Shown here piece by piece: positions 46,066-56,878 of a DNA stretch of 64,000 bases. Source of the DNA: Planctomycetes bacterium syqfu (lineage in GTDB: Bacteria > Planctomycetota > Phycisphaerae > Phycisphaerales > Phycisphaeraceae); NCBI GenBank assembly GCA_020974905.1, contig CP087563.1, positions 4,092,001 to 4,156,000 on the forward strand, in the 5' to 3' direction. Every line of letters starts with the position of its first letter. Position 1 is the stretch's first letter. The notes below the pieces were generated by a model. It made no database searches. It had not been told where the DNA came from and worked only from the letters and a program-made list of their open reading frames with translations. A program made the translations under genes and the position numbers.

Positions 46066-46152
46066 TGGCCCGAGCGGGGGTCGAACCCGCACGACCGTAT
46101 GAGGGCCAACGGATTTTAAGTCCGTCGCGTCTGCCAATTCCGCCATCGGGCC
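46066..46152 (-). tRNA. tRNA-Leu(UAA)
   Basis: A full class II cloverleaf of 87 nt: acceptor GGCCCGA/TCGGGCC, D-arm with GGCAGACGCG, anticodon loop CTTAAAA (anticodon UAA), long variable arm, and GGTTCGACCCC T-arm. CCA is not encoded. An intact terminator follows at its 3' side, while the phage-like integrase lies on its 5' side. Confidence 0.95.
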
Positions 46153-50653: not shown

Positions 50654-51018
50654 CCGATACCTCCGTAGGATTGTGGCACGTCAATTAACTCACGTGCTGA
50701 TGTCATGGCTCTATGAGCGTCAATTTCATCAAGCCTTGCCTGTTCATCCTTGTGTAGGTTTGACCAGTTCATCAACTGCTCAATCGCATGAATGCATTGC
50801 CAGAAGACTTCTCGGATTTCACTGTTTAATTCTTGCTGCTGAGTGTTTTCTTTTTGCCTTTTCTGCATCTGGAAAACAAGGTGTCCGGCCACCTGTTCGG
50901 CGTTGCCGCGGAAACATTCGGTTCCCGTGTCATCGGTGATCGCAAAAACCTCTGATCGGCGTGAGTGATCCATAAATCGATCAACGCGCCATTTACTGTT
51001 GTTGCTTTCTTCATTCAC
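50650..51018 (-). CDS. Small phage protein of unknown function (122 aa)
   Basis: Hydrophilic, with a short beta region (FAITDDTGTECFRGNAEQVAGHLVF) followed by a Gln/Glu-rich helix. No domain recognised. ATGA overlaps with both neighbours argue that it is translated. Confidence 0.55.
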   Translation of the reverse strand: MNEESNNSKWRVDRFMDHSRRSEVFAITDDTGTECFRGNAEQVAGHLVFQMQKRQKENTQQQELNSEIREVFWQCIHAIEQLMNWSNLHKDEQARLDEIDAHRAMTSARELIDVPQSYGGIG

Positions 51019-52352
51019 TCTGCACCTGCCATTTCAAAGAGGGTTATTTCGGTTTCCGGTTGAATGCACGCTGGCGAAAACCAGATGCGTTCCCGGTCTT
51101 TGTTCACGTTACTGGCATTGCGGTTGGCGTATCCGCCGTGAGCCTTCCAGGCTTCAACGGTCCAACCGTGTTGCTCGAGGATGTCGTGTTCACCGGCATA
51201 TCCGCAAAGAGCAATCCGCATTTGCTTGTCCTGCCCTTGTTCGATGCACCAATGCAACACCCGAGCGACCAGGTGGTCGACGTCCTGCGATTTGTCGTTA
51301 GCGTAAAGGTCACCGTGACGCTGCTGGCTGCCTTTGTCGTCGGTTGGTTGCTCACCATTGCCCCGCAGATGATCAAGCCAACCATGCATGCGGTCGATGG
51401 ACTTGGCATATGGCGGGTCCAAGAACACACCGGTCAAGCCAATGCGCGTGGTGGTGGTTCTGGACCCGCAGACACGGGACCAATCGCCGTAACAGGTGCG
51501 GACCAGACGCAGGCGGTCGGACAGGCGTTGCATCCAATCCAATAACCATGCTTGCCGTTGATCACATGTGCCGGCATGCTTGTTGCCCAGGACGCCACGG
51601 CCGATGTCGAACACATCGCCAAGTTGAGGACGGCCGCCCGACAGCACACCGCGACCAACGGTCCCAGAGTCACCAGCCAGATCGGGCAGCTGCCGCGATT
51701 GGTTTACACCTGCTCCCGGCGAACTCAATCGCTGAATCTTTTCTCCCTGGCTGTGGACGCCACAGCCAGGGCCGTTGAACGATGCCAGCCTGACGCGCTT
51801 GGTTTGGGCATGGACGCCGCGTCCGAGTTGTTCCGCATCAATCTGGGGATGGCGGTTTTGCAATATGTTGTTGATACCATCGTGCTTTAATGATGGTCTG
51901 GCCAAACAGTCTGGTGTGGCAGCCCGTGGATTCCCGCTGCACCACCCCCCGCCGATCCAACAACACTGCCCCCACACCCACCACCCGGCAATTCGGGCGT
52001 CATGAGCCAGCGGATCATGCGTCATGCGTTCGCGGAACTCCGCGGACAATTCGGATTGCATCAGCCAACGATGCCTGGCGTGTAGATCAGCCTCGCTGAC
52101 CGGCCAGTCGGCATGTTTGGCCACACCTGCAGGATCATTGAGCACAGCACGCCAAAAGTTGGTGACAAAGTGGTTGGCGTCACTGATCGTCTCGACCTTG
52201 CCAACGTGGTCAGCAGGTCGACGCAGCAACACGGCCAGCGAACCAGCAAACGGCTCGATGAAGTTGGGGACATCACCCAAGCGGGACCAAACCAGGTCAG
52301 CCACCTTTGACTTGCCGCCGAACCAGGGGAATGGTGCTTTTAATACACTCAC
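51015..52352 (-). CDS. D12-class N6-adenine DNA methyltransferase with an internal repeat segment
   Basis: Motif X/I of Dam-like (D12) enzymes is present as APFPWFGGKSKVADLVW and FIEPFAGSLAVLL, and motif IV as VFLDPPY. It methylates adenine N6 in DNA, probably protecting phage DNA. Between these motifs (about residues 172-256) is an insert of five degenerate units each ending in G-x-G-V (LGRGV, GCGV, GAGV, VGRGV, IGRGV), replacing the usual target-recognition region. The GTG at 52352 with GAGTGAGG upstream is preferred; the ribosome site overlaps the stop of the preceding gene. Confidence 0.85.
   Translation of the reverse strand: MSVLKAPFPWFGGKSKVADLVWSRLGDVPNFIEPFAGSLAVLLRRPADHVGKVETISDANHFVTNFWRAVLNDPAGVAKHADWPVSEADLHARHRWLMQSELSAEFRERMTHDPLAHDARIAGWWVWGQCCWIGGGWCSGNPRAATPDCLARPSLKHDGINNILQNRHPQIDAEQLGRGVHAQTKRVRLASFNGPGCGVHSQGEKIQRLSSPGAGVNQSRQLPDLAGDSGTVGRGVLSGGRPQLGDVFDIGRGVLGNKHAGTCDQRQAWLLDWMQRLSDRLRLVRTCYGDWSRVCGSRTTTTRIGLTGVFLDPPYAKSIDRMHGWLDHLRGNGEQPTDDKGSQQRHGDLYANDKSQDVDHLVARVLHWCIEQGQDKQMRIALCGYAGEHDILEQHGWTVEAWKAHGGYANRNASNVNKDRERIWFSPACIQPETEITLFEMAGAE
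51585..51839 (-). repeat. Degenerate GxGV repeats inside the D12 methyltransferase
   Basis: About 85 codons encode five units of variable length (roughly 14-20 residues) ending in G-R/C/A-G-V, several with QLxDxG or LGDV before them. The DNA is diverged but each unit keeps a G-rich core. Similar variable repeats occur in other phage D12 enzymes as far as I recall. Confidence 0.6.
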
Positions 52353-52360
52353 GTTAAACC

Positions 52361-53263
52361 TCACTCGCACAGTCCATATTTAGACTCACAAGCTGGACGC
52401 TGTTGAAGCACATGCAGCCCAAGTTGTCGGCCACCGTTCACAGTCTTCGACCATGCAACCACGTCATCGATCCAGTTAATTGCCATGCCGGGAACTTTGG
52501 GGGCAAAGAACGTGCGACCGACTCGCTTTTCCCAATCTCTAATCTTGTCGATCATCTCTGGCGAACGATCTGCCCATGCTCGAATGTCTTCTTTACCACT
52601 GTTAATGCATGGAGCGCATCCCACACGGTTGAATCCGAGCGTGTAAAGTTCGTTGATCTTTTCGCCGTGGGCTTGCACATAGTCAAAGCACATCTGTTTC
52701 GTCCAGTCGGCAATTGGATGGTGTAACTCGCAGTCAAAGTAGTCATCCCATGTTTCAAAACTTGCGGAGGACCGACGGCGGCTTTCATCACGACGAACAC
52801 CCGCATACCGAATCACTTCACGATCTTGCCATAGATTCTCAATTACTCTTTTTTGTGGGAGTAATTTCAGATGCTCGGTGCAGAATTGGGCGCGTGACGA
52901 TGGCCATCGCTGTTTTAGGATTGCCAGTAGATCGAATGTCAACGGGTCGTCGGGCTGCAAACCGAGTTCCTTGATTTTCCCCTTTGCCCGTCCAGCCATG
53001 TCTGCAACGATTGGCTTGATCATCATGACTTCGTGGACATTCGACGAATACCATTCAATGAATGCAGTTGTCATAGGATGCTCGTTGCCGCCAGCGTCAG
53101 AGTTGATCAAAACAACCTGATCAGCCGGGAAGCGATTCAACACCCAACGTGCGCAAGCTTGGCTATCAATGCCGCCAGAAAATCCGACGATGTGTAAAGT
53201 GTCATCACTCACGCCACCACCGCCTCTCTGCGGACTTTGCGATTTAGAATTATTCGTTATCAC
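52361..53263 (-). CDS. Phage PAPS-reductase-family protein (PP-loop ATP pyrophosphatase)
   Basis: The PP-loop SGGIDSQACARW binds the ATP/PAPS phosphates. Downstream cysteines in AQFCTEHLK, GCAPCINSGKED and the C-terminal ACESKYGLC could ligate an iron-sulfur cluster, as in reductase and DndC-like relatives. Phage members are frequent but their reaction is unknown; sulfate assimilation or DNA/nucleotide sulfur chemistry are options. The GTG at 53263 overlaps the stop of the C5 methyltransferase as GTGA and is preferred over 53293. Confidence 0.8.
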   Translation of the reverse strand: MITNNSKSQSPQRGGGGVSDDTLHIVGFSGGIDSQACARWVLNRFPADQVVLINSDAGGNEHPMTTAFIEWYSSNVHEVMMIKPIVADMAGRAKGKIKELGLQPDDPLTFDLLAILKQRWPSSRAQFCTEHLKLLPQKRVIENLWQDREVIRYAGVRRDESRRRSSASFETWDDYFDCELHHPIADWTKQMCFDYVQAHGEKINELYTLGFNRVGCAPCINSGKEDIRAWADRSPEMIDKIRDWEKRVGRTFFAPKVPGMAINWIDDVVAWSKTVNGGRQLGLHVLQQRPACESKYGLCE

Positions 53264-54011
53264 CACAAAACACCCTTTGTAAGAATCCGCCATGCGACTG
53301 CTGCCACGAGCGGTACTTGTCCATTTCCAGTGGATCTAATGCGTCCCACCCGATCGGCCACCCCATCATCAGGCAGCACAAAGACGGGTGTAGAGACATC
53401 CCCGAAACGCGCGAACCACCGTTCTTGAGATATAGAAAAGCGAGGTAGTCCTCCAAATTCCCTCTTGGCGTACCATCCTCGGCACGTTTCCAGCACAGGC
53501 CATGCGTGGCAATGCAAGCTCTTGGTGTAGGCAAAAATCCAAATTCGGGAGCGGTGATGTGGAAATCCGGCGGCGTCTGCACCGACACAACCCCATCGTG
53601 CATCGAACCCCAATTGGGCAAGGTTACCGAGGACTCTGGCAAGTCCACGTCGAACAAGCATTGGTGAGTTTTCCAGCCAAACGAATGGGGGCAATATCTC
53701 ACCGATGATTCTTGCAGTATCTCCCCACAATCCTGAACGCTCTCCATCAATCCCCCCCCCCTTGCCTGAGATTGAAATGTCCTGGCATGGGAATCCTGCA
53801 CTGATGACGTCGGTGTAGCAGCGGAATGGCCGACCGTCGAATGTTTGAACGTCATCCCAGATCGGAAATCTGTTAAGCGCTCCATCTCGTTGTCGTTGCA
53901 TGACAACACGTCGGCAGTAATCGTTGATTTCGCAACCGGCGATAATTCGGTGGCCAAGTAATCGGCTACCGAGAACTCCGCCTCCTGCTCCCATGAACAG
54001 TGCCAACTCAT
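53250..54011 (-). CDS. Overlapping phage protein in the second frame of the C5 methyltransferase gene
   Basis: This 253-residue frame covers the methyltransferase gene end to end and starts with an ATG immediately after the ASCH-gene stop. It is not random in content: FRSGMTFKHST, FGWKTHQCLFD, SSVTLPNWGSMHDGV, GFLPTPRA, GNLEDYLAF and MMGWPIGWDALDPLEMDKYR appear in the order I recall from a phage family (W-K/R-T-x-Q-C-L ... WGxMxDG ... PTP ... MGWPIGW). In that family the C-terminal motif also lies opposite DRVxR...GNGQVP of a C5 enzyme. Function is unknown. Both frames may be translated. Confidence 0.55.
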   Translation of the reverse strand: MSWHCSWEQEAEFSVADYLATELSPVAKSTITADVLSCNDNEMERLTDFRSGMTFKHSTVGHSAATPTSSVQDSHARTFQSQARGGGLMESVQDCGEILQESSVRYCPHSFGWKTHQCLFDVDLPESSVTLPNWGSMHDGVVSVQTPPDFHITAPEFGFLPTPRACIATHGLCWKRAEDGTPRGNLEDYLAFLYLKNGGSRVSGMSLHPSLCCLMMGWPIGWDALDPLEMDKYRSWQQSHGGFLQRVFCGDNE

Positions 54012-54015
54012 TCAC
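53260..54015 (-). CDS. C5-cytosine DNA methyltransferase (frame 1 of a dual-coding region)
   Basis: Complete C5 methyltransferase of 251 residues: SAM-binding start MNELALFMGAGGGVLGSRLL, catalytic C77 in AGFPCQDIS, E-N in WLENSPMLV, GADAAGFPHHRSRIW (motif VIII) and DDGVADRVGRIRSTGNGQVP (motifs IX-X). It methylates cytosine in DNA and may protect the phage from host restriction. The start is a GTG overlapping the stop of the ASCH gene (GTGA), after AGGGGG. The same DNA is open in a second frame (53250-54011) over its full length. Its stop is GTGA-coupled to the PAPS-reductase-like gene. Confidence 0.9.
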   Translation of the reverse strand: MNELALFMGAGGGVLGSRLLGHRIIAGCEINDYCRRVVMQRQRDGALNRFPIWDDVQTFDGRPFRCYTDVISAGFPCQDISISGKGGGIDGERSGLWGDTARIIGEILPPFVWLENSPMLVRRGLARVLGNLAQLGFDARWGCVGADAAGFPHHRSRIWIFAYTKSLHCHAWPVLETCRGWYAKREFGGLPRFSISQERWFARFGDVSTPVFVLPDDGVADRVGRIRSTGNGQVPLVAAVAWRILTKGVLW

Positions 54016-54587
54016 GCATCCCCCTCGATTCGTTCAAAGTCCAGGACGATCACAGACGGGTTTACATTCCAACCGAATCCACGGGACGCATTGATTGAAT
54101 CCCAAAGGTGTACAAAACACTCAATGGCAAATTGCTCTGTGACATGTCCGTAATGGCGGCTGGTACCAATAGGATTTGATGCGCCCTCGGCAACGCAGTC
54201 CGCTGCTGAAATGTCCTGAACCCGTTCAACTCGCACGGAATTGATTTTCAACTGGATTCGGCTCATCCAGCGAGGCATGTGGATTGATGGCTTCCAAGGT
54301 CCGTCAATATTGCTGCTGGCAAGGTACGCAACTTCGTATCTTTCGCCTGGATTTGTTTTGGGAATGGGACCAGTCCATGGCTCGCGTTCCCATGTGCCGT
54401 ATTCGCAGTCTTCCCACATTTCATTCAACTGCCACGATTCACGCACCCAAAGCACATCGCCTGGTTGGTAAATCGGTACACCAGCTTTGCAGTTGCGCGG
54501 TGTGATCACTCGGCGTGTTTGGGTTTTCTGACCGGACAGAATTGCCTTCACCATTGGCGTGCTGAATAGAATAGGGTGCTCTCTCAC
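54012..54587 (-). CDS. Phage ASCH/PUA-like domain protein
   Basis: Pattern of phage ASCH proteins: HPILFSTPMVKAILSGQKTQTRRV at the start, YQPGDVLWVRESW, HMPRWMSRIQLKINSVRVERVQDI and a closing LWDSINASRGFGWNVNPSV. ASCH domains are PUA-like and bind RNA or modified bases. The GTG at 54587 overlaps the stop of the DUF5131 gene (GTGA) and follows GGGGGTGC. The location beside two methyltransferases suggests recognition of modified nucleic acid. Confidence 0.8.
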   Translation of the reverse strand: MREHPILFSTPMVKAILSGQKTQTRRVITPRNCKAGVPIYQPGDVLWVRESWQLNEMWEDCEYGTWEREPWTGPIPKTNPGERYEVAYLASSNIDGPWKPSIHMPRWMSRIQLKINSVRVERVQDISAADCVAEGASNPIGTSRHYGHVTEQFAIECFVHLWDSINASRGFGWNVNPSVIVLDFERIEGDA

Positions 54588-55648
54588 GCTGCACCCCCGA
54601 TCGCAGGCCATTCACGGCAGTTTTGAAGGTCTGCTGGCCATTCAGATGGATCGCCACCTTTACGATGCTTGAGCACCCGGCTGCGCCATGCCTTGCCGCC
54701 TTCATTGAAATACCGCTGGGATTTAAAGTACGCACCAACAAACTCCAGCCCGCCGAATGCTGCATAGCCAAGTTGCTTGAGGAAAACGGGAACTTTGAAT
54801 TCTTTGCAGTATTGAACCAGGATTCGGATATTCTTAACGTCGCACTGGCGTGCGTTCGGACCTGACTCACCGCCCAAAATCATCCAGCCAATTTTCGGAT
54901 GATCGAAAATCTCATCGGGAATATTGAATGGACTATCTTCCTTAAACCGATATCGCTTGCCCTGAATCCAATCGATCACATCCGTATATTCATCACCACC
55001 ATACTCGTTGTATCGCGGGATGATCTTGTCCAGGAGCGGTTCGCCAGACACAAACAGCAAAGCAGCGCGACATCGGAGCAGGTACGGCATTCTGTAGTCT
55101 GCGGTGTTTTGGTTTTCGATGCTGGTACCAAGCCAGACGTTTTTGGGCGGATTGTCCATATCGAATTTGGGCGGCAGTTCATCGACAGTGAGCTTGGTGC
55201 CGGATATCTCAACGATGGCGTGGCGAACCATTGCCCAGAACTCTTTGGAGTTGGTGATCTCCGCAGCACGTTCCGGTCGCTTGGTCAACACCTGGTAGGT
55301 GTGCCAATTTGCCAGCATCATCACCGCGTAGACTTTGGCGATGTAGTCGATGGGGACATTGGGATGAAATAGGTCGCTCATCGAGTTGACAAAGATCATG
55401 CGGGGCTTGTGCCAGTGAATCGGATCCGTCAACGCTTCATACATTCGCTCAATCTTGCCATTCCATTTGTGGCTGTTGTTGAGGACATTGAGGTATTTGG
55501 TTTTGCGATCGACCTTGCCGGATTTCTTTGCCATGGACGCCAGGCGGTGCGCCATCGTCTCGGCATAGCAGTTGCGGCAGCCTTCGCTGATCTTGGAACA
55601 CCCAACCACGGGGTTCCAGGTTCGCTCTGTCCATTCGATATTGCTCAT
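54584..55648 (-). CDS. DUF5131 (phage Gp37/Gp68-like) protein
   Basis: SNIEWTERTWNPVVGCSKIS and EGCRNCYAETMAHRL at the N-terminus form a cysteine cluster C-x6-C-x2-C plus CYAE, as in the phage Gp37/Gp68 family, which resembles a radical-SAM-like barrel. MIFVNSMSDLFH, WHTYQVLTKRPER, NVWLGTSIENQ, and GWMILGGESGPNAR are family motifs. The reaction is unestablished. ATGA overlap with the previous gene and GTGA with the next. Confidence 0.85.
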   Translation of the reverse strand: MSNIEWTERTWNPVVGCSKISEGCRNCYAETMAHRLASMAKKSGKVDRKTKYLNVLNNSHKWNGKIERMYEALTDPIHWHKPRMIFVNSMSDLFHPNVPIDYIAKVYAVMMLANWHTYQVLTKRPERAAEITNSKEFWAMVRHAIVEISGTKLTVDELPPKFDMDNPPKNVWLGTSIENQNTADYRMPYLLRCRAALLFVSGEPLLDKIIPRYNEYGGDEYTDVIDWIQGKRYRFKEDSPFNIPDEIFDHPKIGWMILGGESGPNARQCDVKNIRILVQYCKEFKVPVFLKQLGYAAFGGLEFVGAYFKSQRYFNEGGKAWRSRVLKHRKGGDPSEWPADLQNCREWPAIGGAA

Positions 55649-56196
55649 GCTGCCCCCTTTGCGCGTTGTTCCTTGAGGTGATCAACAAAGGGCAGCCAGA
55701 TGTATTTCCAGAACTGTTCGATCTCGGGTCGAACGCGTTGAGCACTTGGCAAATTTTCATAATCGCCAAAAATAGTATTGAACCAATCGCTATCAATCAG
55801 TTTGGTCCATATTGCATTGGCATCGTTATATTCAGTTGTAATTGGAATCAGGTCATCCCATGCGTCGCGTGCCTGCTCTTTGGTAATACTCCTGTCATAA
55901 CGCAATTCAAGGATGCTTTTCTTTACTTGATCGCCGAACTTTTCAACGTCTGGCTCGTAGAGTTTTCCATCAGAGAGTTTATTCATCGCATAATCCCGAT
56001 TTATGCGACAAAGAAAGTCATACGGGTCTGGGCCGGTGTGCGTCCAGTTGTAGGCGTAGTGGCCAAAGTCAGAATTGATCATGACGTTGACGGATTCGCG
56101 GCCAAACTCCAAAGAGATATTGCCCCAGGTATTCCAGCCTGATTCCATCTTCGTCCGTATCCGGTACAAGTCGATTTGTGCTTTTGTCACTGGCAT
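55645..56196 (-). CDS. Phage protein of unknown function (183 aa)
   Basis: No domain recognised with confidence. NISLEFGRESVNVMINSDFGHYAYNWTHTGPDPYDFLCR near residues 26-65 looks like a beta-sheet core and is the kind of segment found in phage early proteins. The C-terminal half is helical and aromatic. Overlaps at both ends (1 nt and ATGA) indicate translation. Confidence 0.6.
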   Translation of the reverse strand: MPVTKAQIDLYRIRTKMESGWNTWGNISLEFGRESVNVMINSDFGHYAYNWTHTGPDPYDFLCRINRDYAMNKLSDGKLYEPDVEKFGDQVKKSILELRYDRSITKEQARDAWDDLIPITTEYNDANAIWTKLIDSDWFNTIFGDYENLPSAQRVRPEIEQFWKYIWLPFVDHLKEQRAKGAA

Positions 56197-56657
56197 TAGG
56201 CACCTCCCCCAGGCAACCCAAGCCGTGGCATCTGTCCCGACTGTGCAGCTTCAAGCAATTTTGGCATTGCAAAATCACCGAATGTCACACCGTTGGGCAT
56301 CACAACAAACGCCATGAATTCATGCTCAAGCGTGGTAACACCTTCCTCAATCGCATTGAGTTTGGCTTTGATGGTCAAAAGCAGGACTCGCCATTTCTGA
56401 CGTGTCGCCTGCTCCCATTCCTTATACATCTGATCATCTGATCGTCGGTTTCTGCGGTTTGGAGACATTCTGAATTTTTCGCGTGGCGGGAAGCTGATTG
56501 ATATTTGAATGAGTAGGTTCTTGTACTCAAATGCAATCGTTGCTTTGTCATCATCTTCAATGATTCCAACGCGACCTGCCCCATGACGACGCAGAGTCTC
56601 TTTAATTTCGAACTGCGATTTCTCAACACTCACATTTGTGTTTTTTGCGTAAGACAT
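56196..56657 (-). CDS. Phage protein of unknown function (153 aa), widespread early-gene type
   Basis: [27 protein letters not shown] followed by WEQATRQKWRVLLLTIKAKL and EHEFMAFVVMPNGVTFGD resembles a conserved unknown family in many phages (NTxVSxEKSxxEI ... WRALxLxIKAKLExxE). The start at 56657 is supported by TGATG overlap with the SEC-C gene stop. Confidence 0.7.
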   Translation of the reverse strand: MSYAKNTNVSVEKSQFEIKETLRRHGAGRVGIIEDDDKATIAFEYKNLLIQISISFPPREKFRMSPNRRNRRSDDQMYKEWEQATRQKWRVLLLTIKAKLNAIEEGVTTLEHEFMAFVVMPNGVTFGDFAMPKLLEAAQSGQMPRLGLPGGGA

Positions 56658-56878
56658 CATGCACCTGCCTTTGCAAGCTGCCGGCAGCATCGCTTAAATT
56701 TCTTGCCAGATCCGCATGGGCACGGATCGTTGCGACCCACTTTTAATCGGCCACGCCTTGGAGTAATGCTTTTGATGGCCTGTTCACTGACTGGCATAAA
56801 ATGCCGTGCGATTTCACCCGGTGTGAATTTTTCACGCATTTCTCCAACGCTGTAGATTTTTCCTGTCCTTGTATCCAT
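56657..56878 (-). CDS. SEC-C motif zinc-binding protein
   Basis: Seventy-three residues ending in [19 protein letters not shown], the SEC-C zinc knuckle known from SecA and many small proteins. The zinc site is CPC...CC. The N-terminal 45 residues have no recognised fold. An AAGGA site precedes the ATG; the stop overlaps the next start as TGATG. A binding adaptor role is likely. Confidence 0.85.

Follow-up and report, generated by a model that had tools for sequence, protein, structure and literature searches.

A C5 cytosine methyltransferase gene on the minus strand of the genome of Planctomycetes bacterium syqfu (GenBank assembly GCA_020974905.1, contig CP087563.1) very probably codes in two frames for a C5 cytosine DNA methyltransferase made of two polypeptides, its sequence predicting a catalytic chain and a specificity chain that are encoded almost end to end by the same bases. 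The gene lies within contig positions 4,092,001 to 4,156,000; this whole stretch of 64,000 nucleotides is referred to as the window, and all positions below are counted within it. The first frame, f1 (53260..54015, minus strand, 251 amino acids, GTG start), encodes a catalytic subunit with motifs I-VIII and X. The second, f2 (53250..54011, minus strand, 253 amino acids, ATG start), overlaps it in the +1 frame and is the proposed target-recognition/motif IX subunit.

Both frames are open over 54011-53260, and thus share 752 nt with an offset of +1. The shared initiation region (54009..54025, minus strand) reads GAGGGGGATGCGTGAATGAG, in which an AGGGGG (54025-54020) stands 4 nt from the GTG of f1 (54015-54013) and 8 nt from the ATG of f2 (54011-54009). 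An upstream open reading frame (ORF; 54012..54611, minus strand; phrog_874, function not assigned) ends there in a TGA (54014-54012) that overlaps the f1 GTG and is followed immediately by the f2 ATG. At the other end of the gene, the same bases encode the end of f1 (...DDGVADRVGRIRSTGNGQVP) and the end of f2 (...CCLMMGWPIGWDALDPLEMDKY). An earlier note on this DNA, made from the letters alone, had described the two overlapping open frames, the two starts 4 nt apart behind one AGGGGG, and the GNGQVP end of f1 and MGWPIGW end of f2 read from the same bases, and all of these features were found as described. The start pair is conserved: the codon at +4, where f2 starts, was ATG in 73 of 88 homologues and GTG in 3 of 88, and a Shine-Dalgarno-like trimer was seen upstream of 71 of 76 f2 starts, an observed count with no null distribution. 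In 83 of the 88 homologues f2 spans at least 90% of f1.

Stop codons in f2 were counted against a null in which codons were shuffled among f1-synonymous positions within each gene, so that the f1 protein and the codon usage were kept. Homologues were gathered by f1 alone, because a collection based on f2 could bias the test; the best 80 of 599 loci were used, and these are therefore closer relatives. Seventy-nine passed the filter and 65 remained after dereplication. These 65 genes contained no f2 stops, versus 294.8 ± 12.2 expected (500 shuffles; lowest 262), and genes without an f2 stop numbered 65/65, versus 0.34 expected from the shuffles. The counts per gene third were 0/0/0 versus 85/123/86 expected (first third 85 ± 8). 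No avoidance was seen in the third frame of the same genes (813 stops versus 720 ± 19). The negative control consisted of PF00145 loci from relatives of the window genome, 29 of 30 of which matched the f1 hidden Markov model (HMM); the 29 ordinary C5 genes had 273 stops in the f2 frame versus 292 ± 9, again without avoidance, and the only two control loci with an f2 HMM match (L278 and L279) had 0 f2 stops. A second collection, ascertained by f2 (44 viral loci; 47 of 53 sources passed the length and start filter), gave 9 f2 stops versus 201 ± 10 in the 47 sources, with 580 versus 559 ± 17 in the third frame.

A chance or composition-driven f2, kept open only by the requirements of f1, would be compatible with the window gene by itself, for which the probability of no f2 stop was 0.0075 (not extreme, and weak evidence for coding), and with the fact that f1 dictates some f2 residues (the null identity of 0.205 described below). 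That reading is refuted by the f1-ascertained stop test with its third-frame and ordinary-C5 controls, and the avoidance of stops in every gene third plus the excess of identity over the f1-imposed null leave it next to no probability. It was also observed that in the first gene third the third-frame stops exceeded the null (298 versus 174 ± 10; 65 homologues, L053-L132), perhaps as a side effect of f2 codons.

How far each frame is conserved over and above the demands of the other was measured in 88 dereplicated genes out of 126, using 1711 pairs with f1 identity below 55%. The f2 identity was 0.284 versus a null of 0.205 ± 0.001 (20 f1-synonymous shuffles), and in the reverse test the f1 identity was 0.461 versus 0.202 expected (10 f2-synonymous shuffles). 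The M, P and W of the f2 string MGWPIGW occurred in 88/88 homologues (null 0.45, 0.30 and 0.44), and its G in 93% (null 0.17). The WKTxQCxLF ... PxWGxM ... PTP block at f2 residues ~110-170 (53502..53684, minus strand), a putative target-recognition region, also contained residues conserved above the f1-synonymous null (T 0.89 versus 0.50, P 0.82 versus 0.26, G 0.83 versus 0.19). By these sequence comparisons both frames are under protein-coding constraint, each past that set by the other. The proposal of the earlier note that the gene is a conserved dual-coding one is supported by the stop avoidance with its controls, by this mutual constraint and by the start pair.

The f1 protein matched PF00145 (2.2e-26, profile positions 4-168 of 324), phrog_363 (2.2e-46) and, by phmmer, residues 17-177 of M.HhaI (E 1.4e-9). 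It carries motif I, GFPC (motif IV), ENS/ENV (motif VI), motif VIII and motif X, and is by these motifs a predicted C5 methyltransferase. Cys77 of GFPC (53785..53787, minus strand; column C73 of alignment A1), invariant in 20/20 f1 sequences, is the predicted catalytic cysteine, a role that we take over from C5 enzymes in general. A motif X-like string was present within the last 60 amino acids in 83 of 88 f1 and 0 of 88 f2 sequences; in the window gene this motif is the GNGQVP at f1 residues 230-235 (53311..53328, minus strand), which overlaps the f2 sequence just past its motif IX-like core. Motif IX and a target-recognition domain were not found in the f1 chain, where the PF00145 match ends at 168/324. 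The description of f1 as a complete C5 methyltransferase was thus not upheld, because the PF00145 match is partial and no motif IX-like core was found.

A reading in which f2 does the work and f1 is a relic, decayed or without enzymatic activity, is very improbable. In one ten-codon bin near the gene end the f2 identity was higher than the f1 identity (0.64 versus 0.49), and phage phPA-G is annotated with f2 alone, as a hypothetical protein, as such a reading would have it; against these stand the f1 identity, more than twice that expected from f2 alone, and the invariant columns of alignment A1 (20 sequences), which include GFPC, EN and R.R.

The motif IX-like core in f2 (residues 207-222, LHPSLCCLMMGWPIGW; 53346..53393, minus strand) has the spacing of M.HhaI (LHPRECARVMGYP). 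This core was found in 82 of 88 f2 sequences (68 with the full L-x-P spacing) and in 1 of 88 f1 sequences, against a mean of 2.3/88 when the f2 frame was read in shuffled genes. The pattern is a weak detector, because it found 9 of 21 ordinary C5 proteins and because its spacing was chosen after looking; it uses the M.HhaI spacing, and another spacing gave 0/88 f2, 0/88 f1 and 0/13 controls. In a profile comparison with M.HhaI, using a single-chain profile, RLSARFVEWMMGLPDGYVT...LKALGNGVV was aligned to RKLHPRECARVMGYPDSYK...YKQFGNSVV.

Searching with f2 by tblastn gave 19 phage records, 15 of which cover at least 80% of f2, from residue 1; two tblastn lists, of 307 and 556 records, were examined for the retrieved records alone. 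Among the PHROGs, f2 matched phrog_26627 (5.8e-9), phrog_35493 (4.4e-8) and phrog_1008 (1e-5, f2 residues 68-168). The last of these, which was built independently by others, matched 70 of 72 f2 proteins. The best f2 match was in the +1 frame of the f1 match in 212 of 213 loci (phage records, IMG/VR and genome contigs; plus strand only), and the exception, L045, had no f2 match in a gene truncated at the locus end. When 198 genomes of a Citrobacter genome's family were searched with phrog_1008, 13 had a match, and 18/18 loci overlapped a C5 gene in the +1 frame. No restriction gene was seen near 11 loci of the Citrobacter genome's family on reading the neighbouring ORFs, with no family-library comparison made. 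A standalone f2 family was rejected, as none appeared among the 212 of 213 best matches or the 18 phrog_1008 loci. The motifs of f2 had been attributed in the earlier note to a separate phage protein family, and this did not hold. The same note had proposed that its reading would fall if f2 lacked homologues outside overlaps with a C5 gene and showed no constraint or stop avoidance beyond f1; the first part was indeed found, and the second was not, such constraint and avoidance being clearly present.

The nature of f2 is indicated by more divergent phages. In Mycobacterium phage Eagle, gp78 contains motifs I-VIII followed by a stop, and gp77, in the +1 frame, contains the PTP blocks, LNAAFSEWMMGWEEGW and IIGNGVVVQQA. 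Abidatro and Samora have split pairs like that of Eagle, and in GigiOuiOui the catalytic part is divided over two frames. Propionibacterium phage PFR1 gp45 and Gordonia phage Phinally gp5 (L223) are single chains with the PTP and EWMM modules in frame. An f2 HMM was built from 72 f2 proteins (A2) and run on the ORFs of 12 loci, to which its E-values refer. In all 4 split actinophage loci it matched the beta ORF (E 1e-13 to 2e-20). It also matched PFR1 gp45 at its in-frame C-terminus (iE 5.7e-6), more weakly than the leftover +1 ORF of that locus (7.7e-12). Of seven single-chain viral loci, four (L226, L227, L228 and L234) gave a match at the in-frame C-terminus. The independent phrog_1008 profile matched the Eagle beta ORF (3e-96) and the C-termini of 3/3 single chains compared, namely L226 (9.5e-43), L229 (3.8e-39) and L223 of Phinally (4.8e-60). 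L226 is identical to PFR1 gp45 over their shared 348 residues and matches PF00145 over positions 3-312 of 324. Its AlphaFold model (pLDDT 64, pTM 0.67) aligned to M.HhaI from residue 2 to residue 369 with Z 22.1 (245 residues, rmsd 3.6 Å). These profile matches place f2 in one sequence family with the beta ORFs and the C-terminal parts of C5 enzymes; its C-terminal half groups with the region of C5 methyltransferases that holds target recognition and motif IX. On the core counts and the homology to in-frame C-termini, the predicted second polypeptide carries motif IX. Two of the single-chain loci, L227 and L228, share an ORF at 142-2496 with the same ends and HMM matches; in the L227 translation the methylase is split at PCQ by ~300 residues resembling an intein.

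A tree was made from 55 catalytic domains with a midpoint root (3 of 58 input rows were dropped as too short). The f2-bearing genes formed one group (100/99), from which 12 of 13 ordinary C5 genes were separate.

Several results weigh against the two-chain interpretation. The 9 f2 stops of the f2-ascertained set sit in L007, L028, L034, L039 and L043. The third-frame identity was also above its null (0.238 versus 0.195); because two frames fix most of the bases, an excess of identity alone is not specific to f2. The N-terminal f2 residues are conserved weakly beyond f1. The M.HhaI alignment of the motif IX region reached only 3.9 bits by itself (i-E ~300), the f2 proteins had no Pfam or NCBIfam match at E up to 0.01, and the 4 beta ORFs had no Pfam match at E up to 1. 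The AlphaFold model of the window f2 was poor (pLDDT 55, pTM 0.25) and gave no structural match with Z of at least 2 to the 6 chains compared; no relative of f2 with a solved structure was found by sequence at E up to 1. The f2 HMM gave no match to the in-frame C-terminus of Phinally gp5 (L223) and missed those of L229, L230 and L231. Among 6 single chains, the PF00145 stretch beyond motif VIII was seen in L226 alone, and residues 194-269 of the L226 model, the target-recognition stretch, were below pLDDT 50. All seven single-chain loci (L226, L227, L228, L229, L230, L231 and L234) still contain an open ORF in the +1 frame with an f2 HMM match to part of the target-recognition block, and are therefore not clean chains of f1 plus f2. 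In the tree, control L271, which has an in-frame motif IX-like core and f2 stops at chance level, fell within the f2 clade on a long branch, and the actinophage split and single-chain forms were nested inside the overlap clade. From this nesting and the retained +1 ORF, the fusions look secondary; secondary fusions support a joint function of the two products and do not support a single chain as the ancestor of the clade.

The absence of a Pfam or NCBIfam match would also suit an f2 that is used alongside f1 as an independent accessory protein (a regulator, an anti-restriction protein or similar) that arose by overprinting and acts outside the methyltransferase. A full overlap ties two genes together without requiring a joint function, and no in-frame counterpart of the f2 N-terminal part was seen in the single-chain enzymes. 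Such a protein would not be expected to share its family with beta ORFs and single-chain C5 C-termini, or to hold the motif IX-like core that f1 lacks, and f2 was never found without a C5 gene among the loci examined; an independent accessory role is therefore considered unlikely. On the sequence evidence, the best explanation of f2 is that it supplies the part of the same enzyme missing from f1, with target recognition and motif IX, and is not an unrelated product.

In the two-chain enzyme that we propose, f1 would yield the catalytic chain, with the AdoMet-binding and catalytic motifs I-VIII plus motif X, and f2, starting 4 nt downstream behind the same ribosome-binding region and ending close to the same point, would yield the one that holds the target-recognition region and motif IX. 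Ribosomes that finish the upstream ORF at its TGA may be passed on to both starts by translational coupling. The two products would assemble into one enzyme, by analogy with artificially split C5 enzymes, M.AquI and M.EcoHK31I, and the assembled enzyme would methylate DNA, presumably that of the phage itself. Both frames are presumably translated, and the PTP block of f2 is a candidate for the target-recognition label; the weakly conserved N-terminal third of f2 may have a role in the same enzyme.

The two sets of motifs could also be brought together if +1 frameshifting or slippage joined the f1 motifs to f2 sequence in one chain, with separate initiation of f2 being unimportant. A run of ten G residues lies within both frames of the window gene (53752..53761, minus strand; f1 codons 85-88; read from the sequence), G runs of at least 8 occur at about the same place, in the motif IV loop, in 7 of 88 genes, the window gene included, and in contig L237 a single frame beside a G run holds both motifs I-VI and the f2 block. 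Frameshifting needs neither a stop-free N-terminal third of f2 (0 versus 85 ± 8) nor a start kept 4 nt past that of f1, both of which were found; f1 retains its terminal motif X (83/88); and 74 of 88 genes have no homopolymer of at least 8, the excess of such runs being slight (14 versus 8.4 ± 2.1). A frameshifted single chain is accordingly rated as improbable, more so than an accessory f2, and two separately started chains remain the preferred reading. Apart from this, the G run at 53752-53761 and its homologues are possible slippage or phase-variation sites. In L237 (1378-2672) the frames swap beside the G run, such that one ORF holds motifs I-VI and the f2 block and the other motif VIII to X, which reflects either an assembly indel or a real switch.

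Two-polypeptide C5 methyltransferases as such are already known. In PMC3404938, C5 enzymes are described as having a large domain (motifs I-VIII and X) and a small domain (target recognition and motif IX), split C5 fragments are described as reassembling in cells, best when the C-terminal piece begins between motif VIII and the target-recognition domain, and M.AquI and M.EcoHK31I are given as natural two-chain C5 enzymes. According to the same paper (PMC3404938), M.EcoHK31I (YGGCCR) resembles the present case in that its larger chain has motifs I-VIII and X and motif IX is on a small second polypeptide, and differs in that the predicted target-recognition domain is in its alpha chain, whereas here it is apparently in f2. 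It also belongs to a restriction-modification system, whereas the genes here are in phages or prophage-like settings. The M.EcoHK31I beta ORF reportedly lies inside the alpha ORF in another frame, as Lee and colleagues are said to have found in 1995. Unlike it, f2 is nearly co-extensive with f1 from the start, and the likeness is drawn from the described motif layout. M.AquI (CYCGRG) is similar in having the catalytic motifs on one chain and motif IX on the other, again according to PMC3404938. It differs in having motif X on its small chain. Its two genes are not known to overlap over their full length. Closer to M.AquI are the split pairs of actinophages (Eagle gp78/gp77, Samora gp34/gp35).

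PHROG 1008, labelled 'DNA methyltransferase', corresponds to the f2/beta family, taking in f2 proteins, actinophage beta ORFs and single-chain C-termini; its library entry gives the label only and is silent on any overlap between its members and a C5 gene in a different frame. According to PMC11855218, an HNH endonuclease lies out of frame inside the DNA methylase gene of actinophage ShiLan, which is a similar arrangement; there it is an inserted homing element, whereas here nothing is inserted, the overlap extends over the enzyme itself and the second protein belongs to the enzyme's own family. A literature search of titles and abstract openings found no description of such an overlap in phage C5 genes. 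As far as that search shows, the near end-to-end dual coding, the conserved start pair, the breadth across phages and the constraint in both frames are new.

Matches were found in phages of Pseudomonas, Acinetobacter, Salmonella, Vibrio, Microcystis, Stenotrophomonas and Klebsiella, in Paenibacillus and Synechococcus phages, and on genome contigs of Pantoea, Nitrosomonas, Akkermansia and Phycisphaerae. Of 5,426 E. coli genomes, 68 had DNA similar to one representative and 4 to another, and in the first of these searches no site covered 80% of the query. In a prophage of E. coli LP5-1 (L300, 1544-2530 and 4502-5239) there are two different C5 genes, separated by ~3 kb, and both contain an open f2-like frame. 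A large clade of C5 methyltransferases from phages and prophages (with Planctomycetota, Proteobacteria, Verrucomicrobiota, cyanobacterial, Firmicutes and Actinobacteria hosts) is likely to consist of obligate two-subunit enzymes, their catalytic and specificity chains being read in two frames from one stretch of DNA, in many cases from end to end.

The RefSeq annotation of E. coli LP5-1 has the C5 frame (f1) only, for both genes; in Paenibacillus phage Bloom both frames are annotated, as methyltransferases. The dual coding would have been hidden because annotation often retains one frame. If the two-chain reading is correct, a common phage enzyme is annotated, and probably expressed, as half of itself, enzymes cloned as a single frame have been studied as half an enzyme, and few dual-coding genes of double-stranded DNA phages would be as widespread as this one. 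The homologues would then offer many natural replicates for the evolution of two interacting chains within a shared piece of DNA, among them full overlap, nested overlap, partial overlap and re-fusion as natural stages. Relatives of f2 were also seen under a gene annotated as DNA cytosine methyltransferase in the Leptospira interrogans plasmid records H141 and H142.

The neighbours of the gene at 51015-56690 of the window include members of the phage families phrog_56 (DNA methyltransferase), phrog_424 (phosphoadenosine phosphosulfate reductase-like), phrog_874, phrog_2045, phrog_13202 and phrog_17260, and 4 of the 10 ORFs compared from this region had no family match. A tRNA-Leu is located at 46066-46152 of the window and might serve as an attachment site.

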